Shown: positions 4,167 to 24,888 of the stretch, piece by piece | Numbering within the stretch: position 1 is the stretch's first letter | How the letters are laid out: the number at the start of each line of letters is the position of its first letter | Source: Vibrio sp. NTOU-M3 | Lineage (GTDB): Bacteria > Pseudomonadota > Gammaproteobacteria > Enterobacterales > Vibrionaceae | Length of the DNA: 64,000 bases | Direction of reading: 5' to 3' | Assembly (NCBI RefSeq): GCF_040869035.1 | Contig: NZ_CP162100.1 | Coordinates: forward strand, 1,612,001 to 1,676,000 | The notes under the pieces: generated by a model | What the model was told of the DNA's origin: nothing | The model's database searches: none | The model's input: the letters and a program-made list of their open reading frames with translations, nothing else | Translations under genes and position numbers: made by a program

Positions 4167-4176
4167 AAAACACGCC

Positions 4177-4875: not shown

Positions 4876-4881
4876 AGAGTG

Positions 4882-5700
4882 CTATTTCTCATTTGCATTG
4901 GCAACAAACAATTGTTTGCCATTCAACTTGAACTCATTGATCAATTTTTGCCCCTTCGGATTAACTAGCCAGTCGCTAAAGACTTTAGCGCCTTGATAAT
5001 TAATTGTTGGGTAGCGTTCAGGGTTAACAAGAATTACTTGATAAGGGTTGAATAGCTGTTTGTCGCCTTGGAATAGGATCTTTAAATCTAATTTATTATT
5101 GTACGCTAACCAAGTGCCTCGGTCTGTCATAGTGTAGCCTTGCATTTCTGACGCCATATTCAATGTTGGGCCCATGCCTTGACCGACACTACGGTAGCCA
5201 CCGAAATTCGGTTCAATTTTGCTTTGTTCCCAAATGCCTTTTTCTTTCTTGTGCGTTCCAGAATCATCCCCACGCGACACAAACGTCACGTTACTGTTCG
5301 CGATATTCTTGAATACTGTTGCAACATCTTTTTGGTTCGCAATTTTAGCCGGATCGGAATCAGGGCCTACAATAACAAAGTCATTGTACATCAGTTTACG
5401 AGGCAATACGCCGTAGCCATTATGAACAAAGGTTGCTTCAGCTTTAGGAGCGTGTGTCATCACAAGATCAACGTCACCGTTTTCACCCATTTTTAATGAC
5501 TTACCGGTACCAGCTGCAATGACATCCACTTTATATCCCGTGTCTTGCTCAAATTTAGGCAGTAGGTAGTCAAGTAATCCAGAATGATAAGTGCTGGTTG
5601 TGGTGGCTAAACGAATGTGTTCATTACCTTCTGCAGAACTTGCGGAGTAACTGATTAAAGCCAGTGACGCAGTAGCCAACGTTAAAGTCATTGATTTCAT
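4882..5700 (-). CDS. tupA: Tungstate-binding periplasmic protein TupA
   Basis: Periplasmic receptor that gives the importer its oxyanion specificity. The 272-residue precursor has an N-terminal signal peptide (about 1-22, ending SASSA), then LATTTSTYHSGLLDYLLPKF: the TTTS motif contacts the oxyanion in TupA proteins. Further signs are DLVMTHAPKAE, the SRGDDSGTHKKE segment and GYTMTDRGTW. It heads the operon tupABC-mobA-mobB/moeA. A near-consensus sigma-54 promoter lies about 60 bp before the start codon, with paired palindromes upstream of it. Confidence 0.93.
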   Translation of the reverse strand: MKSMTLTLATASLALISYSASSAEGNEHIRLATTTSTYHSGLLDYLLPKFEQDTGYKVDVIAAGTGKSLKMGENGDVDLVMTHAPKAEATFVHNGYGVLPRKLMYNDFVIVGPDSDPAKIANQKDVATVFKNIANSNVTFVSRGDDSGTHKKEKGIWEQSKIEPNFGGYRSVGQGMGPTLNMASEMQGYTMTDRGTWLAYNNKLDLKILFQGDKQLFNPYQVILVNPERYPTINYQGAKVFSDWLVNPKGQKLINEFKLNGKQLFVANANEK

Positions 5701-5770: not shown

Positions 5771-5787
5771 AGCAAGCAAAGTGCCAA
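5771..5787 (-). promoter_or_regulatory. Putative sigma-54 promoter of tupA
   Basis: Read leftward the element is TTGGCACTTTGCTTGCT: GG (complement of 5784-5785) and GC (complement of 5772-5773) are exactly 10 bases apart, and the flanks match consensus TGGCAC-N5-TTGCW. Transcription would begin near 5760, leaving a leader of about 60 nt before tupA. Confidence 0.75.
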
Positions 5788-5845
5788 GTTTTTCAGTTAT
5801 CTTTAAGTCATAAAATCAATGAGTTACAAACTCAATATTTGACGA

Positions 5846-5860
5846 GGGACAAAATGTCTC
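5846..5860. promoter_or_regulatory. Palindrome GGGACA-AAA-TGTCTC (candidate activator site)
   Basis: Inverted repeat with 6-bp arms (one mismatch) around 3 bases. Its centre is about 93 bp upstream of the predicted tupA transcription start and 80 bp before the activator gene. It shares a pattern with the sites at 5891 and 18613. Binding by the neighbouring regulator is inferred. Confidence 0.6.
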
Positions 5861-5890
5861 AACTTAATCCGGAGCAAGCTAGAGATTCTT

Positions 5891-5905
5891 GGTACACTCT
5901 GTCCC
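5891..5905. promoter_or_regulatory. Palindrome GGTACA-CTC-TGTCCC (candidate activator site)
   Basis: Second copy of the same 15-bp pattern, 45 bp centre to centre from the first and about 138 bp before the predicted tupA start. It lies 28 bp before the activator ATG, so it could also mediate autoregulation. Confidence 0.6.
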
Positions 5906-5932
5906 ATATATAACAAATAATGATTGAACAGT

Positions 5933-7387
5933 ATGTCTCCAACCTTTGACTCCGCGAAACAAAATCAATTTCAGGCTTTTTCTGTCCTAATTGTTGACGA
6001 TGAAGCTGGCATGCAGGCTATTTTAAAGAAAGCGCTCAGCAAATGGTTCTCGAAAGTCGATAGCGCTGGAAGTATCGAAGACGCTGAAATCCTACGCATC
6101 AAAAATCACTATGACTTGATTATTCTCGATATCAATTTGCCAGGACGTTCAGGTATCGAGTGGGAAGAAGCGTTTAATGACGAAGACAAGCGTGCTGACG
6201 TTATTTTTATGACCGGATACGCAGACTTAGAAACTGCGATCTCAGCATTGAAGCTAGGCGCTACAGACTTCATCTTAAAGCCTTTCAATCTCGAGCAGAT
6301 GTTGCAAGCCGTTCAACGATGCATGGATAAACGTTTGAATGAGCGCCATCAATATGCATTAAAACATGACTTCGAACGCCATATCACCACTGAAATTGTC
6401 GGTAGTTCAGAGAAAACAAAACAGCTCAAATTAATGATCAACCAATTTGCGCCTTCAAGAGCGTCCGTTCTTATTGAAGGTGAATCTGGAACAGGTAAGG
6501 AATTGGTGGCTCGTGGTGTGCATGAAGCGAGTCAGAGAAGTGGGCCGTTCGTGCCACTTAACTGTGGCGCGATTGCTCCAGAGCTATTGGAAAGTGAATT
6601 ATTTGGTCATACCTCAGGGGCGTTTACTGGCGCCAAGAAAAATCGCGAAGGCCTTTTTAGAGTCGCAAATGGTGGCACCTTATTTTTAGATGAAATCGGT
6701 GAGATGCCTCTAGCAATGCAATCATCATTACTAAGAGTGTTGGAGCAACGCACGATCCGGCCTGTGGGGAGTGAAAAAGAGATCAGTATTGATGTACGTG
6801 TAGTAGCAGCGACCAACCGTAACTTGAAAGACGAGGTGGAAAAAGGAAACTTCCGCGAGGACTTGTTCTATCGTCTCAACGTATTGAAGATAGATGTTTC
6901 ACCACTTCGAGAGCGTAAAAATGACTTAATTGAACTGGTGCCATTTTTCACCCGAATGCTCACCAAAGAGTTGGGGATGCCCGATTTAAAATGGGCACAT
7001 GAAGATATTGTGGCAATGAATGATTACGATTGGCCGGGCAATATTCGAGAATTAAAGAACTTAATTGAGCGTTGTATTTTATTGGGTAAACCGCCGGCTC
7101 ATTATTGGCGTGAACTACAAGGCGATATCCCACCAGCACACATTTCAATGACGGTCTCAAGCGGAGCCCAACTGCCGGATTTACCGGAAGGAAGCAGAAA
7201 AGACTTTGGTGATGGTTATCCAAACAGCTGGACGTTAAAAGAAGTTGAAAAATCGCACATTCAACAACTTGTCGAACACCATGATGGTAATAAGTCAGCG
7301 GCAGCTCGTGATCTTGGTGTCGCACGAAAAACGTTAGAACGTAAATACAAAGAGTGGGATTCAGAGGAGTCGGATCATGCCGACTGA
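5933..7387 (+). CDS. Sigma-54-dependent response regulator (NtrC family)
   Basis: Cytoplasmic activator of sigma-54 RNA polymerase, 484 residues. Receiver domain about 15-135 with IVDDE and phospho-acceptor Asp66 in ILDINLPG. AAA+ domain about 155-390 with Walker A GESGTGKE, an intact GAFTGA loop (229-234) for sigma-54 contact and Walker B GGTLFLDEIG. A Fis-type helix-turn-helix lies at the C-terminus (NKSAAARDLGVARKTLERK). The frame can start at a TTG at 5924, but the ATG at 5933 is more likely. Its stop overlaps the kinase gene by 11 bp. Sigma-54 promoters in front of tupA and the fdh genes, each with matching palindromes upstream in two cases, suggest it controls both. Confidence 0.95.
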   Translation: MSPTFDSAKQNQFQAFSVLIVDDEAGMQAILKKALSKWFSKVDSAGSIEDAEILRIKNHYDLIILDINLPGRSGIEWEEAFNDEDKRADVIFMTGYADLETAISALKLGATDFILKPFNLEQMLQAVQRCMDKRLNERHQYALKHDFERHITTEIVGSSEKTKQLKLMINQFAPSRASVLIEGESGTGKELVARGVHEASQRSGPFVPLNCGAIAPELLESELFGHTSGAFTGAKKNREGLFRVANGGTLFLDEIGEMPLAMQSSLLRVLEQRTIRPVGSEKEISIDVRVVAATNRNLKDEVEKGNFREDLFYRLNVLKIDVSPLRERKNDLIELVPFFTRMLTKELGMPDLKWAHEDIVAMNDYDWPGNIRELKNLIERCILLGKPPAHYWRELQGDIPPAHISMTVSSGAQLPDLPEGSRKDFGDGYPNSWTLKEVEKSHIQQLVEHHDGNKSAAARDLGVARKTLERKYKEWDSEESDHAD

Positions 7388-9404
7388 AAAGGGATTGATA
7401 CGTAAATGGCGTTACCGATTTAAAACCATGGTGCGTTATCGGTTGTTGTTTTTGACATCCGCTCCCATCTTTCTGACTTTACTTGCGCTGATTGGTATCA
7501 CGATATATTGGTCTGTTCATTACACTTGGCAAAGTGCATTGATCGATGTGTCTGAACGTCTTGGCGTAGCAAATAACAGCATTGAACTTTTACAGCAGAA
7601 ACAAGCCAATCATGTGCAGGCATTCTCTCAGTCGTATGATTTTCGGGTGAGAGTGAAGTCGGATAAGATCGATCCAGAATTTATCGCTTGGGTTTCTGAA
7701 CAGAAGCATCATTACAAACTTGATTTTCTAAAGTTTCATCGTGTCGATACCATTGAAGAAAAATTCAGGTTTATGGATCTAACCCATAAAGAATCATTTT
7801 TTGATGTACTTGATCCAAATGACCTCAATAGGTTGGATGCTGAACTGGCAAAAAAAGCCCAAATTCCAATTTTGAATAGTAATCGTGTGGAAGGTCGTGG
7901 ATTGATTAGTCGCACTGTCATTCCGGTTCGAAATGATGAGCATGAGCTCATCGGCTTTCTCGATGGCGGATTGTTGCTAAATAACAGCACTGTGCTTGTA
8001 GATCAGATCCGAGACCTCATCTATCCATCAACGCAAGATAGCTTGCGTCCAATCGGTACATTGACACTTTTTCTTGATGATCTTCGCGTCAGTACGAACG
8101 TACCGCTAGACAGTGAAGGGCGACTTGGCCGAGCGATCGGTACCCGTGTGTCGAGCGAAGTCAATCGTGCGGTTTTAGGTGAGGGCAAAGAGTGGGTCAA
8201 CCGAGCCTATGTTTATGACGCTTGGTATATCACGGCATATCAACCAATTCGTGATCAATACGATAATGTCATTGGTATGCTGTATACCGGTTATTTAATG
8301 TGGCCATTCCTTAAAGCGTATTTGACAAACATCGTTGAGATCAGTATCACCACCTTGGTTCTCTTATTGGTTTCAGGTGTGATGGTTTATCGTGGCTCAC
8401 GTGACTTGTTTAATCCAATTGAGCATATCTACCGCGTCGTCAAAATGATCCAGTTAGGTAAAGAAACGCGCATTGGTCCACTTGGCCTAGACGAAAAACA
8501 CGAGCTGGCCCAGCTAGCGAAACAGTTCGACAACATGTTGGATTTATTGCGGCAACGAAAAAATGAGTTGAAGTATGCGGCTGAAGAGCTAGAACAAAAA
8601 GTGAAGCAGCGTACTGCGAGTTTAGAAGAAAAAACTGCAGAACTGGAGCTGCATATTCAGCTACTCAACCAAACTCGAGATAAGTTGGTTGTGAACGAAA
8701 AACTCGCGGCGCTAGGTGAGTTAACAGCAGGTATCGCTCATGAAATCAATAACCCAACTGCAGTGATCCTAGGTAACGTGGAGTTAATGGAATTCGAATT
8801 AGGGGACGATTCTTCTCGAGTGAAAGATGAAATCCACGCAATTTTGGGCCAGATTGACCGTATCCGGAATATTACCCGAAGCCTTTTACAATATAGCCGC
8901 CAAGGTGGCGTGCAAGATGAAGTCACCTGGCAACACGTTAACCCAATCATCGAAGAAAGTATTACCTTGGTCAAAACAGGAGCAAAGAGACGCAACATCG
9001 AGTTTGTTTCTGAGCTTAACGCCCATACGCCCGTTGAATTTAATCGCCACCATCTTCTGCAAATTTTAGTTAACCTACAAATGAATGGAATCCATGCAAT
9101 GCAAGGGGCTGGCAGACTTACAATTCGCAGTGAAGACTGGGTAGAAGATGGCCTAGAAAAAGGCACGGTAATCCACGTAAAAGACGAGGGTTGCGGCATC
9201 AAGCCAGAGAACTTAAGCCGTATCTTCTCTCCATTTTATACGACAAAGCGTGAAGGAACTGGACTAGGGCTTTCTGTTTCTCAAAGTTTGCTTAGCCAAA
9301 CTGGCGGCGAGTTGGTCGCTGAGTCTGAGCTCGGAAAAGGCAGTCGCTTTAGTATTTATTTACCTAAGAAAGCGGAATTAGATGTGTTGGTTTCAACTAA
9401 ATAA
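7377..9404 (+). CDS. Membrane sensor histidine kinase, partner of the sigma-54 regulator
   Basis: 675 residues. A membrane segment at about 20-43, an extracytoplasmic sensor of about 270 residues (Cache-like by size and by its DGGLLLN and GMLYTGYLMWPF pieces), a second membrane segment near 322-345, then HAMP and a coiled coil. The kinase core has the H box AGIAHEINNPT with His455, an N box NLQMNGIHAMQ, G1 VKDEGCGI, F box FSPFYTTK and G2 GTGLGLSVS. It should phosphorylate Asp66 of the regulator with which it is translationally coupled. The signal is unknown; formate, tungstate or a respiratory cue are guesses from context. The layout resembles DctB-type kinases. Confidence 0.93.
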   Translation: MPTEKGLIRKWRYRFKTMVRYRLLFLTSAPIFLTLLALIGITIYWSVHYTWQSALIDVSERLGVANNSIELLQQKQANHVQAFSQSYDFRVRVKSDKIDPEFIAWVSEQKHHYKLDFLKFHRVDTIEEKFRFMDLTHKESFFDVLDPNDLNRLDAELAKKAQIPILNSNRVEGRGLISRTVIPVRNDEHELIGFLDGGLLLNNSTVLVDQIRDLIYPSTQDSLRPIGTLTLFLDDLRVSTNVPLDSEGRLGRAIGTRVSSEVNRAVLGEGKEWVNRAYVYDAWYITAYQPIRDQYDNVIGMLYTGYLMWPFLKAYLTNIVEISITTLVLLLVSGVMVYRGSRDLFNPIEHIYRVVKMIQLGKETRIGPLGLDEKHELAQLAKQFDNMLDLLRQRKNELKYAAEELEQKVKQRTASLEEKTAELELHIQLLNQTRDKLVVNEKLAALGELTAGIAHEINNPTAVILGNVELMEFELGDDSSRVKDEIHAILGQIDRIRNITRSLLQYSRQGGVQDEVTWQHVNPIIEESITLVKTGAKRRNIEFVSELNAHTPVEFNRHHLLQILVNLQMNGIHAMQGAGRLTIRSEDWVEDGLEKGTVIHVKDEGCGIKPENLSRIFSPFYTTKREGTGLGLSVSQSLLSQTGGELVAESELGKGSRFSIYLPKKAELDVLVSTK

Positions 9405-9443
9405 TTGCATAACTAAACAAGCCGCTAAGTAACATAACGTTGT

Positions 9444-9473
9444 AAAAAGGCCTCCATTTTGGAGGCCTTTTTA
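9444..9473. terminator. Bidirectional terminator between kinase and mscS-like gene
   Basis: 12-bp stem (9444-9455 with 9461-9472), 5-base loop, T run on both strands. It serves the converging genes that end at 9404 and 9474. Confidence 0.85.
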
Positions 9474-10352
9474 TTATCCAGCATACACCGCAATCTTAGG
9501 CGGGTTAATACCGTGCTTCTTAAACTCTTTCATTACTCGAAGGGTAATGTCGGTTTCAAACAGCTTCTCGTACGCAGTATCAACCACGTAAGCCTTACAA
9601 GTTAATTGAATAGCAAGGTAGTTATCCGTGATGGTCTGCTTTACTAAAACAGTCACAGGCTTCGGTAGGTGGATATAGCGGCTAGAAGAGGCAGCTTCTT
9701 GGATCAAATCACGAGCAAGCGTGATATCTTCATCCATCCCAACATAAAACGGAATCACCACCTGCATATCCAATGCACCATAGTTGCCGCTTACGGTAAC
9801 TTCATTAAGGAATTTGTTGTTTGGAATAGTGATGATGTCATCGGTGAGTGTACGCATGCGAACAGAACGCAAACCAATAGCAATAATATCCCCATAATTA
9901 CCTTCAAACGTGACGCGGTCACCTACTTGAAAAGGGCGATCCACCATTACGGTCATACCTGCGATAAACGATGCTGCAAGGTCTTTCAGAGCAAAACCAA
10001 CAGAGACCGCAAGGGTACCACCTATTAGGGTTAGGATTTGGTCGTTGACCCGAAAACTCATCATAAAGACCAGCATACCGGCGGTCATATAGATAAAGAA
10101 CTGCAGGAAAGACTGTAGCTTTTGCAGCAACATCCGATACTGTGCAAATTGGCTACCAAAGCTTTCAACCAATGAGTTAATGAACTTCAATAACAACCAA
10201 GTTGCCGCAATGATGATGGCGGAGAAGAAAACGCCACTCCAACGGATAAGACTGGCGATCTGCGTGATGTTTTCAACATTAGCCACATCTTCAGAAGCCA
10301 ATGCCGGCGAAGCGACCATCACAGACAAGAGTAATATAATCAGTTTTTTCAT
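9474..10352 (-). CDS. MscS-family mechanosensitive channel with signal peptide
   Basis: Inner-membrane channel expected to open under osmotic downshock. The 292 residues begin with a signal peptide ending SPALASE (about 1-20), then three hydrophobic segments (about 32-53, 78-98, 105-125) and the MscS beta domain (RPFQVGDRVTFEG ... VRMRTLTDDIITIPNNKF). The pore helix segment GGTLAVSVGFALKDLAASF is intact. It starts 2 bp after the stop of the membrane ATPase gene at 10355-12700, so the two are one operon and may work together. Confidence 0.9.
   Translation of the reverse strand: MKKLIILLLSVMVASPALASEDVANVENITQIASLIRWSGVFFSAIIIAATWLLLKFINSLVESFGSQFAQYRMLLQKLQSFLQFFIYMTAGMLVFMMSFRVNDQILTLIGGTLAVSVGFALKDLAASFIAGMTVMVDRPFQVGDRVTFEGNYGDIIAIGLRSVRMRTLTDDIITIPNNKFLNEVTVSGNYGALDMQVVIPFYVGMDEDITLARDLIQEAASSSRYIHLPKPVTVLVKQTITDNYLAIQLTCKAYVVDTAYEKLFETDITLRVMKEFKKHGINPPKIAVYAG
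9910..9922. other. Near-match to matS, GTGACGCGGTCAC
   Basis: Palindromic 13-mer matching matS GTGACRNYGTCAC at all but one position (G at the Y position on this strand). Possible weak MatP site inside the mscS-like gene. Confidence 0.35.
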
Positions 10353-10354
10353 CT

Positions 10355-12700
10355 TTACTTCACCAATAAATGCTGACGATCTAGAACATTTGTAATGTGG
10401 CGGAACCAGTGATCACTGACTCGTGCCTTATCTTCACTCCACTCGATGTATCCACGGCTCTGGAAGTAGCGTAGGGTACCAATTACTTCTGCAATACTTA
10501 ACTGTGTGCATTCAGACAGTTCTTCTGGCGACGCAATTTCGAGTTGAACGATTGAACGCAAGACCGCAAGCATCGGTTTTGGCATTTTTTCAAGCTCTTG
10601 AGATTCTGGTGCATGAAACAAGCGAACATAAACCTGTTGTGCTTCTTTATCTCGACGTAACGAGAGGCGGAAAAAGCGCAGTGCAACGGTTGGGTTGCCA
10701 TCAGAGTAATGCCAAAGAATTCGGTAGAAGCCTTGTTTAGCGCGCTCTTCTTCGGTGATGTCTTCATGATCCCACTGCTTTGGAACCACTAAACCATCAA
10801 ATGAAATTCTATGCTCTTCATTTTGGTTAATACGACTATCAAGCAGTTCACGGATAAGTTTTTCATTCCAACGAGGTAAAAAGCTCACGAGATCGAATAG
10901 CAATCTTTCACCACGAGCACGGTCGATAAAACGCCAACTCGCTTTCTCGATTGCTATCACTACACGATGATTTTTCTTAGAGCGACGCAATAAATTGGTC
11001 AAACGAATCAAATCAGACAAACCACCCACCATCGGTTTTACTAAACGCTGAGCATTGTCGACTGCCATTAAGTAAGAGGTCTCACTTTTTCTTAGGTGAG
11101 CCAGAATTTGAATCTCACTCGATTCTTCGCTCAAGCCAAGTTGGGATGCCAATTCAGCCAGCAGCTCGCTATAACCGCTATGTTGACAATTAAGGTAGAG
11201 AGGTTTTGCGTTTCGCACCTTACTAAGTAGTGTGTGCAGTAGGGTTGTTGTTCCCACACCTCGCTCACCTGAAACCACACAAATTGCTGGGCTGTCTGTC
11301 ATCAAATACTTAGACAATTGCTGTATTTCATCACTTGCATAATCAACAAGCGTGCTTTCCTTAGTTCCCGGTAACACGTACTGAAAAGCATCGTCACCCC
11401 GAACACGCACTAAGTGATTTTGTCCATTGTTAATGCTGGTTTGTTTCGCAACCTCAATTCGGAATAGGTACGCCAGTGCCTGACTAAAGAGCGCGTAATT
11501 CGACAGTAGGGCAACAATTTGATGCTTAAAACTGTGAACTGTGAGCCAAACTATCGCTAGTGCAGTCGCTGGTAAGTTGAGGAGGAAAGTGTCTTTTTTG
11601 GCAATTGCCCAATTAACCCAAACTGGGCGATCGGTGATCTTCATAGCCGTATCAAAGACTTTCTTACGCCATAGCTTAAGCACAGATAGCGTGACCAAAA
11701 CAAACCAGAAATACAACATATTGTATATCCAGTAATAAATGGTTGTCTTACCAAGCGTGCGCATTGATATTTGCAAAATCACACCAGCGACGATAGCACT
11801 CCATACATATCGACGAATGGTCGCAAGGCGAAGCGCAATCACTTCCTCTGAAGAGGTTCTACTGTTTCGGTGCGCAAACTCAAGAAGGAAGCTGATTGCA
11901 ATCGAGCCACCCAATACCCACCAAGTAAAGATCTCCAAGTAAATAAGATGCTGCAAGCTAGGGATGTTTGATAACACACGTAGCGACAACGTAATTGCAA
12001 TTAAGAATGCGATAGCGCGATGTGCTCGGCTGAAATACCAAACTAAACGAACCCATAGAGGTGGGTTCGTTTTACTTTCCAGCTGTGTTTGGCGAAATAC
12101 TTCGATGAGGCGTTTACTGTTTGCAAGCCACCAAGCTAAGCCAAAGTAAATAAACAACACTTTAAGAGCAGCCCAAACCACAGGAATCGGCGAGATCAAG
12201 ATGTCGTTAATTAGTGCACGGAAGCTACGCAGTTGAAAGTGCAATAGGTATTGAGCATTGAGTTTGGTTTGATTCCATTCTTGCTTAAACTGCGTAACCC
12301 CATAGGGGCCGAAACCGGTCAGTTTATCTCTAACGGGTTGTTGGGCGAGTTCAAGCAAATGCTGTTTGCTCTGACCCAAACTATTTAGCGTTAGGTAGCT
12401 GCTCTCTGTTTCAAACCAGTCATTTTCTACATTTGATTCACGGTATTTCTCTAAGTGTGCCTTAAATACCGTCGTCTGTTTTTTCTGCTCATTGATCACC
12501 GCAGTCAGTAGCTGTCGAATTTTTCGGTGATCCCGCTCTGTCATAAACAGTGGCTCTGGGATCTTATTTATTTCGGAGGCAATTTCTTCTGCCACTGCAT
12601 CGACTTGTGGTGTTGGTGTGAATTCATACTTCCATTCTGCCTGAGCAAAGCCAGACAATAAAACACCAGTCAATAACAATAAGCGCAATGCAAAACGCAT
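10355..12700 (-). CDS. Membrane-bound ATPase-like protein with altered P-loop
   Basis: 781 residues: signal peptide (1-21, ending FAQA), a helical periplasmic region to about 165, some seven hydrophobic segments between 170 and 425, then a cytoplasmic AAA/STAND-like domain from about 450 and a winged-helix-like end (about 710-770). The P-loop is GERGVGTT at residues 478-485, with Thr484 where Lys is normal, so nucleotide hydrolysis is doubtful unless another residue substitutes. A Walker-B-like LMAVDNAQ follows. It is the first gene of a two-gene operon with the MscS-like channel. The function is unrecognised; a regulator or gate of the channel is a guess from the pairing. Confidence 0.8.
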   Translation of the reverse strand: MRFALRLLLLTGVLLSGFAQAEWKYEFTPTPQVDAVAEEIASEINKIPEPLFMTERDHRKIRQLLTAVINEQKKQTTVFKAHLEKYRESNVENDWFETESSYLTLNSLGQSKQHLLELAQQPVRDKLTGFGPYGVTQFKQEWNQTKLNAQYLLHFQLRSFRALINDILISPIPVVWAALKVLFIYFGLAWWLANSKRLIEVFRQTQLESKTNPPLWVRLVWYFSRAHRAIAFLIAITLSLRVLSNIPSLQHLIYLEIFTWWVLGGSIAISFLLEFAHRNSRTSSEEVIALRLATIRRYVWSAIVAGVILQISMRTLGKTTIYYWIYNMLYFWFVLVTLSVLKLWRKKVFDTAMKITDRPVWVNWAIAKKDTFLLNLPATALAIVWLTVHSFKHQIVALLSNYALFSQALAYLFRIEVAKQTSINNGQNHLVRVRGDDAFQYVLPGTKESTLVDYASDEIQQLSKYLMTDSPAICVVSGERGVGTTTLLHTLLSKVRNAKPLYLNCQHSGYSELLAELASQLGLSEESSEIQILAHLRKSETSYLMAVDNAQRLVKPMVGGLSDLIRLTNLLRRSKKNHRVVIAIEKASWRFIDRARGERLLFDLVSFLPRWNEKLIRELLDSRINQNEEHRISFDGLVVPKQWDHEDITEEERAKQGFYRILWHYSDGNPTVALRFFRLSLRRDKEAQQVYVRLFHAPESQELEKMPKPMLAVLRSIVQLEIASPEELSECTQLSIAEVIGTLRYFQSRGYIEWSEDKARVSDHWFRHITNVLDRQHLLVK

Positions 12701-13025
12701 AAAATTCTCTTTTAACTTAGTAGGTTAGAGTTAGTTTAGTCGGTTTGAATCTGAAATCGAGTTCAGCATGACCATTTTAAGGACGAAACACTTTAATCTC
12801 AGTTTTGATCCAAGTGTCAGTGAAGTGTCATGATTAAATTGTATTGCTTATCAATAACAATATTCAAGAAAGGTATGGTTAACTCCCGTTGCTAAATTGC
12901 GAAATCTTCCACTTGAGCAAGCCGGAAGATGCGAATAAATAAAAACAACACTTGCAGTTAACGTGCATAGCCAGTAACGTTGCGCGGTTTTTCCTAATAA
13001 ACTTGAATTGCTAAGGTAAAAGGTT
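12701..13025. other. 325-bp intergenic region between divergent genes
   Basis: It must hold the promoters of the ATPase-mscS operon (leftward) and of the ABC-F gene (rightward). The only structure seen is a 7-bp inverted repeat ATCTTCC/GGAAGAT at 12904-12910 and 12924-12930, and AAGG sequences before the TTG start at 13026. No convincing promoter or further gene was found. Confidence 0.5.
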
Positions 13026-14618
13026 TTGATTTCCACAGCGAATATTACTCAACAATTTGGCGCTAAGCCGCTATTTGAAAACATCTCAGTTAAGTTTGGC
13101 GAAGGTAACCGCTACGGCTTAATCGGGGCTAACGGTTGTGGTAAATCAACCTTTATGAAAATCCTGAGCGGTGAACTTGAACAAACAAGCGGTAACGTAA
13201 GCTACGATCCAAATGAACGTGTTGCTAAGCTAAATCAGGACCAGTTTGCGTACGAAGAATTCACTGTCATCGATACCGTTATCATGGGTCATAAAGAGCT
13301 ATGGGAAGTGAAGCAAGAGCGTGACCGCATCTATTCACTTGCTGAAATGAGCGAAGAAGACGGCATGAAGGTAGCTGACCTAGAAGTACAGTTCGCGGAA
13401 ATGGACGGTTACATGGCAGAAGCGAAAGCGGGTGAGCTTCTTCTTGCTGTGGGTATTCCAATGGAGCAACACTTCGGCTTGATGAGTGAGGTTGCACCGG
13501 GTTGGAAACTTCGTGTGCTTCTAGCGCAGGTTCTATTCGCAGACCCAGACGTTATGCTTCTTGACGAACCGACCAACAACTTGGATATGGATACTATTCG
13601 TTGGTTGGAAGACACGCTAAACGCACGTAACTGCACAATGATCATCATTTCGCACGACCGTCACTTCCTGAACTCAGTATGTACCCACATGGCTGACTTG
13701 GACTACGGTGAGCTGCGTGTTTACCCAGGTAACTACGACGAATACATGACAGCGGCTTCTCAAGCTCGTGAGCGTCTACTGAATGACAACGCGAAGAAGA
13801 AAGCACAGATCGCGGAACTTCAAACGTTCGTTGCGCGTTTCTCTGCAAACGCCTCGAAAGCAAAACAAGCAACATCTCGTGCTAAGCAAATCGACAAAAT
13901 CAAACTCGACGAAGTTAAAGCGTCTAGTCGCCAAAACCCATTCATTCGTTTTGAACAGTCTAAAGAGCTATTCCGTAACGCTCTAACTGTAGAAAACCTA
14001 AGTCAAGGTTTTGAAGAAGACCTGTTTGCAAACTTCAATGCAATTTTTGAAGTGGGTGAGCGCGTCGCCATCATCGGTGAGAACGGGGTGGGTAAGACAA
14101 CCCTACTAAACACACTTGCTGGTGTACTAGAACCACGTACCGGTGAATTCAAATGGTCTGAGAACGCAAACATCGGTTACTACGCGCAAGACCACGCTCA
14201 TGAATTTGAAGAAGATATGAATCTAACAGATTGGATGGGGCAATGGCGTCAAGAAGGTGATGACGAGCAAGTGGTTCGCAGCTTCTTAGGTCGTATGCTG
14301 TTTGGTCAAGACGATATTAAGAAATCCGTGAAAGTTCTGTCTGGTGGTGAACAAGGTCGTATGCTGCTTGGTAAGCTAATGATGCACAAGCCAAACATGC
14401 TGCTAATGGATGAACCAACTAACCACATGGACATGGAGTCGATCGAATCTTTGAACACGGCACTTGAGCAATACAAAGGCACGTTGTTCTTCGTATCACA
14501 CGACCGTGTATTTGTAGATTCGCTTGCTACACGTATCCTCGAAATCAAAGACGGTAAAATCCATGATTTCAAGGGCACATACTCAGAGTTCCTACGTTCA
14601 CGCGGTATAGAAGGTTAA
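13026..14618 (+). CDS. ybiT: ABC-F ribosome-associated ATPase, YbiT type
   Basis: Soluble protein with two ABC domains and no membrane part; ABC-F proteins act on the ribosome as translation factors. The 530 residues equal E. coli YbiT in length and match it closely from the first residues. Walker A loops GANGCGKST and GENGVGKTT, signature LSGGEQGRM in the second domain, Walker [11 protein letters not shown] and [10 protein letters not shown]. The start is TTG at 13026 with AAGG just upstream; homologues begin at the same place. It is monocistronic and converges with the chemoreceptor gene. Confidence 0.93.
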
Positions 14619-14631
14619 TTAGCCCGATCTT

Positions 14632-16518
14632 CTAATATTTAAACTGAGCCACAATTGCTTCAAGCTTGTGGCTCACGTCAGATACTTGTTCACTACACCT
14701 CACCGAACCAGTTACGATTTGATGCGTATCGCCCGCTAACTCCGCTATCTGAGTAATATTTCTGTCTATTTCCGCAGACACCATTGATTGTTCTTCAGAC
14801 GCGGTTGCTATTTGCGCATTCATATCAAACATTTCAGATATTTGATCAACAATCTTATCTATCGCTCCAACCACATTCTCTGTTTGCTCGTTAGAGTGAT
14901 GAGCCTGCTCAAGACTGCTTTGCATCAGTGACACCGTTTTTTGAACACCTGTCGTAAGGCCGTTAATAGTGGTCTCAATTTCATGAGTTGATGTATTCGT
15001 CATCAAAGACAACTGACGTACTTCATCAGCAACAACTGCAAAACCTCGACCATTATCGCCAGCTCGAGCTGCCTCGATCGCCGCGTTCAATGCCAGTAGG
15101 TTAGTCTGTTCAGCAATGCCTTGGATGGAGGTGATCACTGAATGAATATCACGACTGCATGTTTCTAATTCAGAGACAAGCTCTTGTGAACTTTCAATAT
15201 TGCTCGTTAGTGTTTGAATACTTTGCCCTGCTTCATGAGTTAATGTACGCCCACGTTCAGCTTCTAGTTTTACCCGTTTTGCATTTTCCGCAGCATGCTC
15301 AATATTGGCGGTGATCTCGTTACTGGTCATAACCAATTCGTTCACGGCTGTTGCTACAGATTCCGATTCCATTTTTTGCTGTTCTGCATTCTTCATGCTT
15401 TGCATGGCTGCTTTTTCAGAACTGCATGAGTTTTCACTGAGTACGTTCATCACCTTAGCCAGATCTTTAATATTGCCGTGTAGCGAACTAATGAAGAGAT
15501 CAAATGAATTAGAGAGCTGTACCAGTTCATCGTTGCCTTTAGCATTCATCCGTACCGTTAGATCGCCTTCACCTCTGGCAATTTTATCCATCAGCATATT
15601 GATTGCGCCGATGCGGTTAGCGATATTTCGCCCAATTAAGACCAACAACAGTGAAACTAGGAGTGCGACGCACGCTCCAAACGCATAGAGCTGTTGCTTC
15701 ACACTGGTTGTTTTGGAATTAATCAATGCTTCTATGTCTTGCTGTAAGACATGGATGATTTCTTCAGTTTGATGAACATTATTGCGAAGCGCACCACGTA
15801 ACCCTTGTTGTGGCGTTAAACCAAAGGTTGTTTTGGCGTCAGCCAGTTTCGTAATCGCCTGTTGATAATTTTGTACCGCAGAACCAACGAGTGGATAGGA
15901 TTCAGAGATTAACAGCAAGGTTCTCAGTGCATTTTGTACATCAAGAAAGGTGCTCTCACTTGGGGTAGCAAGATAGAGATTGTCATATGTGTAAAGAGAG
16001 AAGAGGGCTTTGGTTAAATCACTATCATTGAGGTAAGAAACTTGTTCTCTTAATGACTCACGTGTCAGCTCGAGATCTTGTGTTAAACCCGACTGGCCGC
16101 TCTGACCGATTTGATTAACAGAACTGACCAATTGATGAAATTGTATTTGATAATCTTTCACGGTTTGGATGACTTGATCGACTTGCAGCCCAATAGATGG
16201 ATCAAATTCACTGACCAGTGTATTGAGCTGTGACACTCGAACCAGAAGTTGCTCTGAGGTTTTATCAAACCGCTCAACATATTTGGCGTCTTTACGTGCT
16301 AAGAAGTCTTTTTCATGGCGCCGCAGTGTAAGGAGATCGACTTCACTCAACAGGTTTTCTGTTGCGGCGATATCGAGACGATTGAGTGTGTTAAAGCTAA
16401 CCTGTTGAAATGCGGCATAGCATCCGATTCCTACCAACAGCATTAATGTGATTAGCGTTAGTTTCGCGCGAATAGTTAGCGCAAATGATAGCCGAGACTC
16501 TTTTGGTGATGGTGTCAT
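14632..16518 (-). CDS. Methyl-accepting chemotaxis protein, HBM-type sensor
   Basis: Chemoreceptor that signals to CheA/CheW at the membrane. 628 residues from the ATG at 16518, which has an excellent GGGAGGTG five bases upstream; the longer frame would start at a TTG at 16536. Membrane segment about 17-38, a mainly helical periplasmic part of about 235 residues that looks like a helical bimodular (HBM) ligand domain ([12 protein letters not shown] near its start, [13 protein letters not shown] near its end), second membrane segment about 270-290, HAMP, then the signalling domain with the conserved hairpin [16 protein letters not shown]. There is no CheR/CheB tail pentapeptide. Ligand unknown. 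Confidence 0.92.
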
Positions 16519-16639
16519 TAAACACCTCCCTAGCAATGAACGTTGTAATGACTGCTTTTTAGTACTTTGTTACATTTTTATTACAGCAGTTATAAAACTA
16601 ATAGCACTAGAGAGGGGCTTTTCAAGTTAGACTGAGAGA

Positions 16640-17473
16640 TTATTCTTCTTTTAAATGCCCTTTAACATCAAATTCAACTTTATCTGCTCCGGTAAAGATC
16701 TGAAAACGCAGACCTTTTGCACGAGCGATCGTCGTTATGCCAAATTTTTGAGCTAGATCTAATCCCATTTGAGTTACACCAGAACGAGAAAGTAGCACTG
16801 GAATTCCCATCTGAGCCACTTTAATCACCATTTCTGACGTTAAACGACCCGTAGTATAGAAGATCTTATCTTCACCAGATTCACCGTTTAGCCACATTTC
16901 TCCCGCTAACGTATCTACGGCATTGTGACGGCCAACATCTTCAACAAATGAAAGTACTTGGTCACCTTGGCACACCGCGCAACCATGAACTGCTCCAGCT
17001 TTCTTGTACGTATCGTTATAATGGGTCAGAGCTTCCAATGCGGCATAGATTTCTGACTGCTTCAGCGGGACTTGAGGCACCTGATAGTTCTCAAGTTGCT
17101 TCATCACATTTCCGTACATGGTGCCCTGACCACAGCCAGAAGTAACCGTTTTCTTTTTCAGCGCACCTTCTAGGTGCTCCGTATTTTCTTGAGTGATAAC
17201 AGCGGCAGTGTGCGTTTCCCAGTCGATGATGACAGATTCTAGAGCTTCGGGATCCGATAGAAAGCTTTGGTTTTTTAAGTAACCTAAAACCAACGATTCT
17301 GGTCGCGACCCCAACGTCATTAGCGTTACCACTTCCTTCCAATTAAGCATGACTGTAAGAGGGCGCTCGCAAGCGATTTGTTTAGTCAGCTTTTCTCCGT
17401 ATTCATCGAAGACTTCCACTTCTATGGTTTGAAGTGGATTTTCACTGGTTTTGAGAATTTTTGGTTTCGCCAC
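16640..17473 (-). CDS. fdhD: Formate dehydrogenase sulfurtransferase FdhD
   Basis: Passes sulfur from IscS to the bis-MGD cofactor, a step needed for active formate dehydrogenase. 277 residues; the active-site loop TSGCGQG with its Cys lies near residue 112, and EDVGRHNAVDTLAG and TGRLTSEMVIKV are also family signatures. The start is a GTG at 17473. It faces away from the fdh operon and shares a 218-bp intergenic region with the DUF3305 gene; a weak -24/-12 element is visible 34-60 bp before its start. Confidence 0.95.
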   Translation of the reverse strand: MAKPKILKTSENPLQTIEVEVFDEYGEKLTKQIACERPLTVMLNWKEVVTLMTLGSRPESLVLGYLKNQSFLSDPEALESVIIDWETHTAAVITQENTEHLEGALKKKTVTSGCGQGTMYGNVMKQLENYQVPQVPLKQSEIYAALEALTHYNDTYKKAGAVHGCAVCQGDQVLSFVEDVGRHNAVDTLAGEMWLNGESGEDKIFYTTGRLTSEMVIKVAQMGIPVLLSRSGVTQMGLDLAQKFGITTIARAKGLRFQIFTGADKVEFDVKGHLKEE

Positions 17474-17517
17474 GGGGAATCCTATTTATTATTTTCTTAG
17501 AGGTGAAACATGATCAA

Positions 17518-17533
17518 AGCAATTACCATTCCT
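17518..17533 (-). promoter_or_regulatory. Weak sigma-54-like element before fdhD
   Basis: Leftward AGGAATGGTAATTGCT: GG-N10-GC spacing and TTGCT at -12 agree with sigma-54, but the usual CAC after GG is missing. A predicted start near 17507 would give a 34-nt leader. Could be chance. Confidence 0.35.
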
Positions 17534-17638
17534 GATTCGCACAGTATCTTAAATTAAACACTCTACTTAAATTCGATTGAACTTTTGCTGTGGTTTAGAT
17601 TCTGAGGAAGGTATGGCTTACTGAGACTTTTCACAAGA

Positions 17639-17654
17639 AGGTACAGTAATTGCT
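17639..17654 (+). promoter_or_regulatory. Putative sigma-54 promoter of the DUF3305-DUF3306 unit
   Basis: AGGTACAGTAATTGCT: GG at 17640-17641 and GC at 17652-17653 with 10 bases between, TTGCT at -12 perfect, one C-to-T change at -24. Transcription would begin near 17665, 27 nt before the ATG at 17692. No activator palindrome was found upstream of it. Confidence 0.6.
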
Positions 17655-17691
17655 TATAAACGTCAGCAACAAATGAAGAGTTAGGTGAGTT

Positions 17692-18156
17692 ATGTCAAGT
17701 GAAGCGCCAATAACAAAACAATTAGAAAAGAACGAAACGGTTTGGGATATTGAGTGTGAATTAGTCGAGCACGAAATTTCTACCGGCATTTGGTTAACCA
17801 GTCAGTGGCAACTAAAAGGGTTTAACCTCAAACCAGAAATGGTATCAGAATCTGTTACGTCGCTTGAACTTCATAAAGATGAGCGTACGGATTATCGCTT
17901 TAATTTAAGTTCCCAACAGCCCAAACTATTTCTGATCCTAGATAACATGGATACAGACAGTGTGCCTAAAATTGTGTCATTAACCGCTTCGCAAAGCGTT
18001 GCTGGTCAATATATGGATGGAGACTATCTCGTATTATCTAATGACATGCCATTACCAATACAGGCATGGATGGAGGCGTTTATAGGGCGTCATGGGGAGT
18101 TATTAGAACAGCGACGTAAGAAGCGTCGCGGGGCGGGGCGTTCGAGTGGCAACTAA
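17692..18156 (+). CDS. DUF3305 protein of the formate dehydrogenase locus
   Basis: A 154-residue soluble protein whose gene is found next to DUF3306 and respiratory formate dehydrogenase genes in many proteobacteria. The core is WDIECELVEHEISTGIW and a lysine/arginine-rich tail (RRKKRRGAGRS). No catalytic motif is visible. It overlaps the DUF3306 gene by 11 bp. A role in assembly or delivery of the enzyme is inferred only from constant neighbourhood. Confidence 0.85.
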   Translation: MSSEAPITKQLEKNETVWDIECELVEHEISTGIWLTSQWQLKGFNLKPEMVSESVTSLELHKDERTDYRFNLSSQQPKLFLILDNMDTDSVPKIVSLTASQSVAGQYMDGDYLVLSNDMPLPIQAWMEAFIGRHGELLEQRRKKRRGAGRSSGN

Positions 18157-18640
18157 TTTTTTAAGCCGTTGGTCTCAAAGAAAACTTCAGCAAACGGATC
18201 AAGCGGAAGAAGAGCAAATTGAGCCTTCACAAGAGCCCGTTGTTGAACCGGTTGCAGAGGCGCATGCCGACATAACCGATGCTAAGCAAGAGTCAGAAGA
18301 CGATGTCGTCAGCGTAAGTTCTTTATTGGCAACTGGAGCAGAAACGGCCGTAAAGAAGGCAGCTTTACGTAAACTGTTTTTAAGTGGTGAATTTTCCGAA
18401 GTGGATGCGCTTAATGACTACGATCATGACTATAAAGCCGTCAAGAGTCTATCAAGTGATGTCGCCGAAAAACTCAGAGAATGGGTAAACGATCAGTCTG
18501 AGCAGGAGCCTCAAGTAAATGAGGAAGACAAATCGCCTGAACTGAAAGCTCAGCCGGACGACTGCATTGAAGAGAATCATCTTCCTGATACAGCAGAATC
18601 AGAAATTAATGTGGGACAAAATATACCACACAAAGAATAG
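18146..18640 (+). CDS. DUF3306 protein of the formate dehydrogenase locus
   Basis: 164 residues beginning at a GTG inside the DUF3305 gene. It begins FLSRWSQRK, typical of DUF3306, followed by a very acidic, Glu/Gln-rich and probably disordered stretch, then a conserved middle (ALRKLFLSGEFSEVDALNDYD) and another acidic tail. Soluble, function unknown, almost always paired with DUF3305 in fdh loci. A terminator follows, so these two genes can be a separate unit from the structural genes. Confidence 0.85.
   Translation: MATNFLSRWSQRKLQQTDQAEEEQIEPSQEPVVEPVAEAHADITDAKQESEDDVVSVSSLLATGAETAVKKAALRKLFLSGEFSEVDALNDYDHDYKAVKSLSSDVAEKLREWVNDQSEQEPQVNEEDKSPELKAQPDDCIEENHLPDTAESEINVGQNIPHKE
18613..18627. 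promoter_or_regulatory. Palindrome GGGACA-AAA-TATACC (candidate activator site)
   Basis: Same layout as the tupA-regulator sites: a perfect GGGACA arm, three A, and a second arm matching TGTCCC at four of six bases. It is centred about 165 bp before the predicted fdh promoter start and sits inside the end of the DUF3306 gene. Confidence 0.5.
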
Positions 18641-18654
18641 GTACATTTTGACCG
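18640..18654. promoter_or_regulatory. Palindrome GGTACA-TTT-TGACCG (candidate activator site)
   Basis: Left arm identical to the site at 5891; right arm matches TGTCCC at four of six bases. It is centred about 138 bp before the predicted fdh start, the same distance as the distal tupA site. Confidence 0.5.
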
Positions 18655-18664
18655 AATCATCAAC

Positions 18665-18701
18665 AAGCCGTATGCGACAAAATGTCGCATACGGCTTTTT
18701 T
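18665..18701 (+). terminator. Terminator after DUF3306, with embedded palindrome
   Basis: Perfect 15-bp stem (18665-18679 with 18683-18697), 3-base AAA loop, six or more T. The top of the stem reads GCGACA-AAA-TGTCGC (18674-18688), which also fits the candidate activator pattern, about 104 bp before the predicted fdh start. It separates the DUF3305-3306 unit from the structural operon. Confidence 0.85.
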
Positions 18702-18758
18702 CTGTATCAGAACTAGACAAATTAATCTTAACTTATTGATTTAATAATTAAAAAAATC

Positions 18759-18774
18759 AGGCACGGCATTTGCT
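18759..18774 (+). promoter_or_regulatory. Putative sigma-54 promoter of the fdh structural operon
   Basis: AGGCACGGCATTTGCT agrees with TGGCACG-N4-TTGCW at every position but the first. GG 18760-18761, GC 18772-18773, 10 bases between. The predicted start near 18785 lies 36 nt before the ATG at 18821. It follows a strong terminator, as an independent promoter should. Confidence 0.8.
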
Positions 18775-18820: not shown

Positions 18821-20482
18821 ATGCTAAAACAATTACTACAACAATCAGAGTCTAGTAACGGTAAAGCGCGGTTATATGCGTTTGAAAATACGGTTGAACT
18901 GACTAATTTGATCCCGCCGACGGTAAGTTACGAAAGTGGTGGAAATACACTCATTATTGGTCCAACTGCAATTATCGAAAGCGCAGCCCAGCAACTTGAG
19001 CAAATGAACAGCATCACTTTGCTGTCTACTGATGGTGAGAAAGGCCAACATAAAGAGCTTTATTTCGCGAGTCGTGTTCAGGTTTCTGGTTTTCTCGGTA
19101 CCTTCGAAGTTTTGACTGAAAACCAAGGCGTGACGACTAATCTTGCAAAAGTAGCCATCAACCATGACTGTTTTGATGTGGTGCTCGATCTTTGTCTCAG
19201 CAGTTGTATGACCGAAGAAGTTCCTGTCCCGGGCTACTACCCTGTTGGGCGAGGTTATCCAAAGCTTGCTGAAGCACTTGAAGAAATTCCAACCCTAATG
19301 GGAACCTTTGATAAACCAAAGTTCTTTCGTTTGAACACCGAACTCTGTGCGCACAGTTCTCGCGGAGTTAAAGGTTGTGAACGCTGTGTTGATGCCTGTC
19401 CCGCTGGTGCACTTTCAAGTGAAGGTAGTGACAAAACCGGTCATCGAATCGAGATAAATCCATATTTATGCCAAGGGGTGGGGACCTGTGCGACTACATG
19501 TCCAACAGAAGCAATACATTACGCTTTACCCAACCCACTAGAAACGCAAAAGTTCATTGAGCGGACACTCGCGAATTATGAAAAAGCGGGAGGTCAGGAT
19601 CCTATTGTTCTGATCTGCAGTGCTCGCCATGAAGCCTACAATGTTATGGCACTGAAAGTACTGCCAGACAATGTCATTCCGGTTGTGGTTGAAGAGCTAC
19701 CATCTGTTGGGCCAGACACTTGGTTTGCGGCTTTAGTTAATGGTGCGACGCAAGTGCTTTTTGCAGCCAGCCGTTACATGCCTGAGACGATTCAAAGAGT
19801 ATTGAATAATGAAGTGGCAACCGCTCAAGAACTATTGTCACAATTGGGCATCACCAAAGAGTGCATTGATGTACTCTATTTGGAGTCCTTAAGAGAAGGC
19901 CCTCCGACCTTGTGCGCAGAGTCGTTCGATCTCGCTTTAGGTGAGTTGCAAGGTACAAAACGTCAACGTCTATTCACGGCGTTAGATGCATTAGCCAAAT
20001 CTCGAATTCCTGTCGATAACATCGTTTCAATGCCAGTAAATGCTCCTTTTGGAAGCGTTAACTGCAGCAGTAAAGATTGTACGTTATGCATGAGCTGTGT
20101 TGCTGTATGTCCAACACGCGCGCTTCACACCGATGGAGTGACGCCGTCACTTAAGTTTATTGAACAAGACTGCGTTCAATGTGGATTGTGTGAAAAGGCT
20201 TGTCCAGAACAAGCACTTTCTCTGACACCTCGCATGAATTGGGATAGTGCAACACGCCAATCGGCAATCACTATCCATGAAGAAAAAGCAGCAGAATGCA
20301 TTCGCTGTCATAAACCATTTGCACCGCAATCGATGATAGACATGCTCCAAAACAAGTTACGCGGTCACTCTCATTTTACTGATCAAGCAGCCATCAATCG
20401 TATTGCGATGTGTGAAGACTGCCGAGTTGTCGACATGTTTGAATCGATGACTGAAAACCCACTTCAACAGTTGAAATACTAG
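18821..20482 (+). CDS. Multi-cluster 4Fe-4S ferredoxin-like protein of the fdh operon
   Basis: A 553-residue cytoplasmic iron-sulfur protein without signal peptide or membrane segments. Four 4Fe-4S cysteine sets are visible: around residues 186-200 (CERCVDACP), 217-228 (CQGVGTCATTCP), 414-430 (CTLCMSCVAVCP) and 450-461 (CVQCGLCEKACP); extra Cys pairs lie near 492 (CIRC) and 531 (CEDC). Homologues head fdh operons in Shewanella and other Vibrio. It probably shuttles electrons for or helps mature the dehydrogenase. The frame is open upstream to a TTG at 18770, but that lies before the predicted transcription start, so ATG 18821 is chosen. Confidence 0.88.
   Translation: MLKQLLQQSESSNGKARLYAFENTVELTNLIPPTVSYESGGNTLIIGPTAIIESAAQQLEQMNSITLLSTDGEKGQHKELYFASRVQVSGFLGTFEVLTENQGVTTNLAKVAINHDCFDVVLDLCLSSCMTEEVPVPGYYPVGRGYPKLAEALEEIPTLMGTFDKPKFFRLNTELCAHSSRGVKGCERCVDACPAGALSSEGSDKTGHRIEINPYLCQGVGTCATTCPTEAIHYALPNPLETQKFIERTLANYEKAGGQDPIVLICSARHEAYNVMALKVLPDNVIPVVVEELPSVGPDTWFAALVNGATQVLFAASRYMPETIQRVLNNEVATAQELLSQLGITKECIDVLYLESLREGPPTLCAESFDLALGELQGTKRQRLFTALDALAKSRIPVDNIVSMPVNAPFGSVNCSSKDCTLCMSCVAVCPTRALHTDGVTPSLKFIEQDCVQCGLCEKACPEQALSLTPRMNWDSATRQSAITIHEEKAAECIRCHKPFAPQSMIDMLQNKLRGHSHFTDQAAINRIAMCEDCRVVDMFESMTENPLQQLKY
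20138..20150. other. matS site, GTGACGCCGTCAC
   Basis: Perfect match to GTGACRNYGTCAC inside the ferredoxin-like gene. Confidence 0.85.
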
Positions 20483-20491
20483 GAGCTACGC

Positions 20492-21127: not shown

Positions 21128-21190
21128 CGAACACGTCGATAAGAGAGGCTTTAGCCTCCAAACACTACCTTAAAAGGTAAGGAAGCAACG

Positions 21191-21388: not shown

Positions 21389-21398
21389 GGAGCGAACC

Positions 21399-24254: not shown

Positions 24255-24265
24255 GGAGTCCCGAA

Positions 24266-24874: not shown

Positions 24875-24888
24875 TCGTGGAGAAAGTC

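Follow-up and report, generated by a model that had tools for sequence, protein, structure and literature searches.

A conserved palindrome and sigma-54 promoters point to a two-component regulon for tungstate uptake, cofactor synthesis and formate dehydrogenase in Vibrio

NtrBC, AtoSC and ZraSR are two-component systems in which a HisKA kinase is paired with a regulator built of a receiver, an AAA+ domain and a Fis-type helix-turn-helix (HTH), with palindromes 80–150 bp upstream of −24/−12 promoters, the range within which NtrC-type activators bind. Here we analyse a locus of this kind in Vibrio sp. NTOU-M3 (contig NZ_CP162100.1, positions 1,612,001–1,676,000 of the forward strand; this whole stretch of 64,000 nucleotides is called the window, and coordinates refer to it), in which genes for a response regulator (RR) and a sensor histidine kinase (HK) lie next to a tungstate importer operon (tup) and near a formate dehydrogenase operon (fdh). 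RR–HK shares the above architecture and differs from the three named pairs in scoring below the cut-offs, in its sites and targets, and in its sCache sensor. FhlA of Escherichia coli is likewise a sigma-54 activator of a formate dehydrogenase system; its own N-terminal domains detect formate, it lacks both a receiver and a kinase partner, and its model matches only the AAA+ part of RR (234 bits versus a cut-off of 830). TupR/TunR of Desulfovibrio is set apart as a one-component metal-responsive regulator and not a sigma-54 two-component system. What it has in common with the present locus is the regulation of tungstate uptake and, by the title of a 2019 paper by Rajeev cited in PMC10102598, of tungstoenzymes.

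An initial annotation of the window had proposed that one two-component system turns on metal import, bis-MGD synthesis and the enzyme together, and that RpoN studies in Vibrio may list parts of such a regulon. An RpoN regulon list for V. cholerae is said to have been given by Dong and Mekalanos in 2012. In V. parahaemolyticus, VP1501, VP1508 and VP1510–VP1515 are indeed already listed as RpoN-dependent, with neither an activator nor a shared regulon named in the accessible part of that paper (PMC9817140). The annotation knew of no named regulon of this kind, and we found no description of this tup–fdh regulon in the literature searched, where most subscription papers were out of reach. We consider it very likely that HK and RR govern a dedicated NtrC-type regulon in which FdhD and formate dehydrogenase rise along with metal import and cofactor synthesis.

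Sigma-54 boxes and a shared palindrome at tup and fdh

The features on which the argument turns are the following.

1110–5700, minus strand: tupABC-mobA-mobB/moeA operon (tungstate importer and bis-MGD cofactor synthesis), from open reading frames (ORFs) and NCBIfam/Pfam matches
5771–5786, minus strand: tupA sigma-54 promoter TGGCACTTTGCTTGCT, 0 mismatches
5846–5860, no strand: predicted strong tup enhancer palindrome GGGACAAAATGTCTC, centre 80 bp from the −12 element
5891–5905, no strand: second, weaker tup site GGTACACTCTGTCCC, 45 bp further from the promoter, adjoining the RR start
5933–7387, plus strand: RR (probable ATG at 5933), with receiver, sigma-54 AAA+ and Fis-type HTH
7377–9404, plus strand: HK, sensor histidine kinase with an sCache_3_3 domain (taken as periplasmic), 11-bp overlap with RR
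16640–17473, minus strand: fdhD (PF02634)
17518–17533, minus strand: fdhD sigma-54-like promoter AGGAATGGTAATTGCT, 3 mismatches
17639–17654, plus strand: DUF3305–DUF3306 sigma-54 promoter AGGTACAGTAATTGCT
17692–18156, plus strand: DUF3305 (Pfam)
18146–18640, plus strand: DUF3306 (Pfam)
18613–18654, no strand: span of two weaker fdh upstream sites, GGGACAAAATATACC from 18613 and GGTACATTTTGACCG from 18640
18665–18697, plus strand: predicted intrinsic terminator of DUF3305–3306, 15 pairs and then T's, with the strong fdh palindrome as its head
18674–18688: predicted strong fdh enhancer palindrome GCGACAAAATGTCGC, within the terminator
18759–18774, plus strand: fdh operon sigma-54 promoter AGGCACGGCATTTGCT
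18821–26329, plus strand: fdh operon, extent inferred from spacing

RR and HK on the plus strand are divergent from the tup operon on the minus strand, in the gene order and orientation first described. Sigma-54 boxes were defined as GG-N10-GC of the TGGCAC-N5-TTGCW type with up to three mismatches, and the three originally placed before tupA, DUF3305 and fdh were all found; a fourth, weaker box before fdhD had been missed. The centres of the palindromes lie 80 and 125 bp from the −12 GC at tup (about −93 and −138 from the inferred start) and 91, 125 and 152 bp from it at fdh (about −104, −138 and −165), in agreement with the distances given in the initial annotation. Its consensus GGKACA-N3-TGTCCC marked the right places and was too strict, being exact only once, at 5891, with one or two mismatches elsewhere; with up to two mismatches it occurs nine times in the window versus 4.83 ± 2.72 in shuffles, a count that 9 of 100 shuffles reach and that is not significant. 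The case rests on conservation. Judged from exact-core variants among orthologues, the conserved form of the palindrome is GNGACAWWWTGTCNC, with the core GACA-N3-TGTC. A matrix of this form, built from exact-core orthologue sites plus the tup site of the window, which makes its high scores partly circular, gave 23.2 bits at 5846 and 22.4 bits at 18674, with the next best match over the 64 kb at 7.6 bits; the weaker sites scored 3.8 (5891), −0.3 (18640) and 7.0 (18613).

Across the whole genome we found 11 GACAWWWTGTC sites versus 6 for the reversed control, and among the 10 sites examined only those at tup and fdh are intergenic with a box (up to two mismatches) within 190 bp. A combined pattern of core, 61–91 bp and box has two matches in this genome and none in the reversed control. 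The tup and fdh sites fit this pattern and are thus taken to be the two matches.

Conservation in Vibrio

In a sample of 148 genomes of the genus, RR was present in 115, tupA in 111 and the Fe-S protein gene of fdh in 112. The position matrix and orthologue scan proposed in the initial annotation were run, and both boxes and palindromes proved conserved at tupA and fdh. The tup set comprised 79 loci that include tupA, plus the window. A box faces tupA in all 80 of these tupA–RR intergenic regions, and the core is exact in 73 and one mismatch away in the other 7, V. harveyi, V. diabolicus and V. mytili among them. The second tup site (GGTACA-N3-TGWC) is found in 60 of the 80 regions, 7 of its 67 occurrences being first sites of the harveyi group, and in all 53 pairs with an exact-core first site the spacing between the two is 45 bp. 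The central triplet of the second site is CTC in 59 of 60 cases, in contrast to the AT-only centre of the first, and the second site may be under a further constraint close to where RR begins. The near-invariant CTC and the adjacency to that start are a hint of autoregulation or of another bound factor.

For fdh, 1.5 kb upstream of the Fe-S protein gene were taken from 100 RR-positive genomes of the genus; these, the window, two genomes treated separately (G144 and G117) and nine without RR make up the 112. A box was found in 99 of the 100. In the remaining genome (G017) the stretch had been placed some 400 bp too deep within the gene; a palindrome-plus-box match lies 144–253 bp upstream of the gene. 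Palindromes and the fdh box are present in G144 (fetched apart as L105), and G117, which is 79% complete, has a combined-pattern match by the Fe-S gene. Of the 99 genomes with an fdh box, 97 have an exact core upstream of it and the other two a core with one mismatch. The distance to the −12 element is 91–94 bp at 74 of 102 exact fdh sites, with minor classes near 81–86, 101–105 and 113–115 bp. The best companion site, 33–35 bp upstream of the main one, has at most two core mismatches in 96 of 98 regions (window included) and at most one in 19. Helical phasing of these distances is suggestive and is not claimed: with a 10.5-bp period the resultant length is 0.50 over 21 unique distances, and the best fit is 10.9 bp for these 21 and 11.35 bp for all 102.

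Between fdhD and DUF3305, a box precedes DUF3305 in 32 of 32 regions. On the fdhD strand, 27 of the 32 have a box with TTGC and at most three mismatches, versus 1.25% of mononucleotide shuffles; the window is included in both counts, and for fdhD there is no candidate in L055, L057, L058 and L071 and a poor one in L069. A palindrome-like sequence (AGTACAAAATGTCCT or AGGTCAAAATGTCCT, and variants) stands in the DUF3305 5′ leader 34–40 bp downstream of the −12 element in seven loci (L024, L035, L038, L040, L044, L047 and L048). The first form was considered and rejected, being downstream of the box and confined to some species.

Joint absence in regulator-free genomes, and spread beyond the genus

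Nine genomes of the sample carry a compact tup-fdhD-DUF3305-DUF3306-fdh cluster without RR. The exact core is absent from all nine (7.5–8.5 kb searched in each), and no box (TTGC, up to three mismatches, within 300 bp) was found at any of the 36 promoters of tupA, fdhD, DUF3305 and the Fe-S gene; a single one-mismatch palindrome occurs within 300 bp of these promoters. By Fe-S protein identity the nine fall into two groups, with 54–59% between them and 71–94% and 79–93% within. They amount to a natural experiment, in which two Vibrio groups retain tup and fdh and lack RR, sigma-54 promoters and enhancers all at once. Conservation and this joint absence are the evidence that goes beyond chance.

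The named loci beyond Vibrio include Photobacterium and Moritella, and across the order 77 of 394 genomes, in 6 of 114 genera, have relatives of RR (E up to 1e-120). A further 20 loci were read, of which 19 are from other genera; tup–mob is always divergent from RR–HK in them, with a box (at most one mismatch) at tupA in 19 and an exact palindrome there in 17. Boxes and palindromes reach other families. In L248 and L249 a palindrome stands not at tupA but between fdhD and DUF3305, where in L249 it has a box on either side, one for each gene; in L250, a member of the same genus, there is none. In L241, L242 and L244 the palindrome is upstream of the Fe-S gene, and fdhD and DUF3305 have boxes only. 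On account of these arrangements, few as the loci are, several of the sigma-54 promoters in the fdh cluster may depend on a single palindrome. Two loci from another genus carry further palindromes, TGGACAATTTGTCCA (L251:3765–3779) and AGGACATTTTGTCCC (L252:3028–3042), several kb away from RR.

Regulator and kinase

RR carries PF00072, PF00158 and PF02954, all above the gathering score, and a GAFTGA-type loop, GHTSGAFTGAKK, read by eye at about 6607–6642; the GAFTGA loop is the sigma-54 contact motif of NtrC-family activators. HK carries HisKA, HATPase_c and sCache_3_3, and the two presumably form a cognate pair. Among the 25 matches listed for each, no NCBIfam model reaches its curated cut-off: the best for RR are AtoC/NtrC at 377.5 bits (cut-offs 714 and 558.6) and the best for HK are AtoS/ZraS at 198 bits (cut-off 646). 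RR stays below the equivalog cut-offs of NtrC, AtoC, ZraR, LuxO and FhlA and is thus not one of these proteins. In HK the sensor is conserved, with 47 invariant columns across 49 sequences; all matches listed for HK against solved structures lie on the kinase part and none on the sensor. In V. cholerae we take the RR orthologue to be VC1522, from its divergence from VC1523; in the accessible parts of the literature found, VC1522 is named merely in passing.

Published expression and binding data

The comparison with rpoN mutants that the initial annotation had in mind can be made from published data, which are in agreement at each of the three promoters. The log2 changes reported for an rpoN mutant of V. 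parahaemolyticus are −1.45 for the tupA gene VP1501, −1.84 for VP1508 and −3.17 to −4.75 for the fdh genes VP1510–VP1515 (PMC9817140). As far as the accessible part of that paper goes, it predicts boxes for VP1501, VP1508 and VP1510, marks V. cholerae RpoN chromatin immunoprecipitation (ChIP) peaks for the three in a table, calls VP1501 and VP1508 hypothetical and names no activator, enhancer or shared regulon; the box that it predicts for VP1508 is identical to the DUF3305 box of L035. In V. cholerae, VC1511–VC1518 and VC1523–VC1524, among which are tup, DUF3305/3306 and fdh genes, were raised in a ribD mutant, and all but VC1524 also in a ribN mutant, in the part seen of PMC5816637; VC1511, VC1514 and VC1516 are reported, in the part seen of PMC5109742, to be up in a rugose variant.

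Proposed mechanism and alternative explanations

In the mechanism that we propose, which would serve a formate dehydrogenase dependent on bis-MGD and probably on tungsten, the Cache domain of HK would meet its signal and RR would be phosphorylated. Phosphorylated RR would bind GNGACAWWWTGTCNC and, more weakly, a second site lying 45 bp (tup) or 33–35 bp (fdh) further out; once bound, it would drive sigma-54 RNA polymerase at tupABC-mobA-mobB/moeA and the fdh operon. The fdhD and DUF3305–3306 promoters would probably rely on the fdh enhancer, some 1 kb distant, and a single signal would raise FdhD and the enzyme along with metal import and cofactor synthesis. That RR is the palindrome-binding protein we infer from position, from co-occurrence and conservation, and from joint absence; formate or metal shortage as the signal of the kinase is a guess. 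The single two-component system first proposed for import, bis-MGD synthesis and enzyme is thus supported by conservation, by joint absence, by the rpoN data and by the V. cholerae co-rise, with RR as the probable binding protein. An apparently uncharacterised two-component system of Vibrio, Photobacterium, Moritella and further genera would thereby acquire a function together with a candidate site to bind, and three entries that stand apart in the published RpoN lists would become one regulon.

Several observations weigh against this proposal. The combined pattern matches in 134 of the 148 genomes, many of them without the regulon, so the genome count alone proves nothing; among the matches listed, the extra ones are largely recurrent look-alikes elsewhere, read as coding by eye. 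No exact core was found upstream of fdhD or DUF3305 in the 32 regions, and in L248, L249 and L250 there is no palindrome between tupA and RR. Thirteen genomes keep RR without tup and fdh; in the ten examined (L095–L104), RR adjoins mobA divergently in nine and has a palindrome beside it in one. RR in such genomes has another role or is decaying, which speaks mildly against its serving tup and fdh only. HTH identity to the RR of the window is 70–83% in sampled genomes with tup versus 57–76% in those without tup and fdh; these overlapping ranges give little support, and a kept binding site is neither supported nor excluded by them. At VP1510, RpoN alone did not bind the promoter in vitro and the effect was called indirect, in the part seen of a paper that also states that the holoenzyme may be needed for binding there (PMC9817140). 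In V. cholerae, VC1514–1516 are filed with the iron regulon in the part seen of PMC5816637, so the co-rise of the VC genes may have another cause. No expression data for an RR mutant were found in the literature searched.

In nine of the ten tup/fdh-free genomes an ammonium transporter gene (L098:10773–12127 and equivalents) lies close to RR–HK, with a sigma-54 box before it where we looked. This box, downstream of HK, was considered as an alternative RR target and, as the gene is an ammonium transporter, provisionally set aside as NtrC-type on the basis of known NtrC sites.

The palindrome might instead be the operator of another protein, such as an unlinked regulator or repressor, with RR activating from other or weaker sites. 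The core is short and symmetric, its AT-only centre would suit other factors, and the 13 genomes just described keep RR, with no palindrome beside it in nine of the ten examined. We nonetheless regard this as unlikely: palindrome, boxes and RR are jointly absent from nine genomes, the palindrome sits within the 80–150 bp typical of NtrC-type activators, and it accompanies RR in 17 of the 20 further loci, 19 of which are from other genera. A purely indirect action of RpoN on fdh and tup, the conclusion reached for fdh in the part seen of PMC9817140, draws on the negative electrophoretic mobility shift assay (EMSA) with RpoN alone at VP1510; the V. cholerae RpoN ChIP peaks that a table of that paper marks at the three promoters speak against it, as do boxes in 80 of 80 tup and 99 of 100 fdh regions versus none at the 36 promoters of RR-negative genomes, and we hold it to be very improbable.

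The fdh palindrome could also be merely a terminator hairpin whose likeness to the tup site is coincidental, for in many genomes it does lie inside a hairpin followed by a T-run. We give this hardly any credence. The core is exact in 97 of 99 genomes while the outer stem changes freely (in the stem alignment described below the core is invariant by selection), its distance to the box clusters at 91–94 bp, the same core recurs at tup with little outer hairpin, and 36 of 98 fdh regions keep it without a T-run of five. RR binding at both palindromes stays our preferred reading.

A predicted enhancer nested in a terminator hairpin

The fdh site at −104, first described as an upstream palindrome, is one, and its nature had to be corrected in that it is also the head of an intrinsic terminator. 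The hairpin was analysed in 77 distinct sequences chosen for an exact core. Paired bases fill 82.6% of cells, versus 70.3 ± 0.8% in shuffles and at most 46.8% when the alignment is slid; cells changed on both sides number 142 versus 67 ± 7.6, and the covariation score is 0.355 versus 0.161, and 0 of 500 shuffles reach any of these three values. Two of the five covariation measures do not exceed shuffles: pairs with change on both sides (10 versus 9.5; 221 of 500 shuffles) and further pair types (39 versus 36.3; 64 of 500). The shuffles ignore relatedness, which inflates the pairing percentage and the score more than the two counts. Mean fold energy is −16.0 at fdh versus −7.7 with shuffled flanks, and −5.6 or −6.2 at the tup palindromes versus −4.8 or −5.9, in keeping with little outer stem at tup. 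A T-run of five follows 59 of 94 distinct fdh sites versus 9 of 73 and 2 of 70 at tup; by region, it is present in 62 of 98 at fdh. About a third of genomes thus have no clear terminator and yet keep the core.

These patterns indicate that the DUF3305–3306 terminator hairpin has the fdh site as its head in many genomes, and that its outer stem varies while staying paired. In the RR-free genomes, a crude search for terminators before the Fe-S gene gave weak hairpins in two of nine and none in seven, so those genomes do not show the terminator form without the enhancer. It is possible, and we put it forward tentatively, that one palindrome does two jobs that may be coupled: as double-stranded DNA, it would be the fdh enhancer, which the fdhD and DUF3305 promoters, roughly 1 kb distant, probably share, and as RNA the head of the upstream operon's terminator. 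If so, the bound regulator could affect termination in the interval from DUF3306 to fdh, or read-through could displace the regulator, and such coupling would tie the ratio of maturation factors to enzyme. An enhancer nested in a terminator hairpin is in any case a compact arrangement.

Gene identities

The genes within the two operons are as follows.

4882–5700, minus strand: tupA (TupA model, PDB 3muq match)
4177–4875, minus strand: tupB
3453–4166, minus strand: tupC
2888–3475, minus strand: mobA
1110–2891, minus strand: mobB/moeA fusion
18821 (ATG)–20482, plus strand: Fe-S protein of the fdh operon
20492–21127, plus strand: delta/TorD-like chaperone
21191–21388, plus strand: 65-amino-acid (aa) ORF before fdhA
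21399–24254, plus strand: FdhA
24266–24874, plus strand: FdhB
24877–25929, plus strand: FdhC
25913–26329, plus strand: 138-aa ORF overlapping the end of fdhC

TupA scores 255 bits against the NCBIfam TupA equivalog, the sole model matched and below its cut-off of 400, and matches PDB 3muq with E 9e-139. In the part seen of PMC5517513, 3muq is V. parahaemolyticus TupA, VP1501, classed as a TupA with the TTTS motif; by eye, the TupA of the window contains LATTTSTYHSG. FdhA and FdhC fit the alpha and gamma subunits of a formate dehydrogenase: FdhC is above the cut-off of TIGR01583 (276 versus 116), and the best model of FdhA, TIGR01591, stays below its cut-off (483 versus 666). No Pfam family matched the 65-aa or the 138-aa ORF, and the latter has no NCBIfam match either. 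The metal of the enzyme is probably tungsten, from the linkage to tup: tupA is present in 111 of the 112 genomes of the genus sample with the fdh Fe-S gene, and the exception is 79% complete. TGA codons seemingly inside the Fe-S protein of many genomes were dismissed: the query for this protein began four codons upstream of the ATG, and in the three loci translated (L009, L035 and L048) the stop stands at codon three of the stretch, ahead of the ATG. Between HK and fdhD lie genes for an MscS-type channel, an AAA-domain protein, an ABC-F protein and a chemotaxis receptor.

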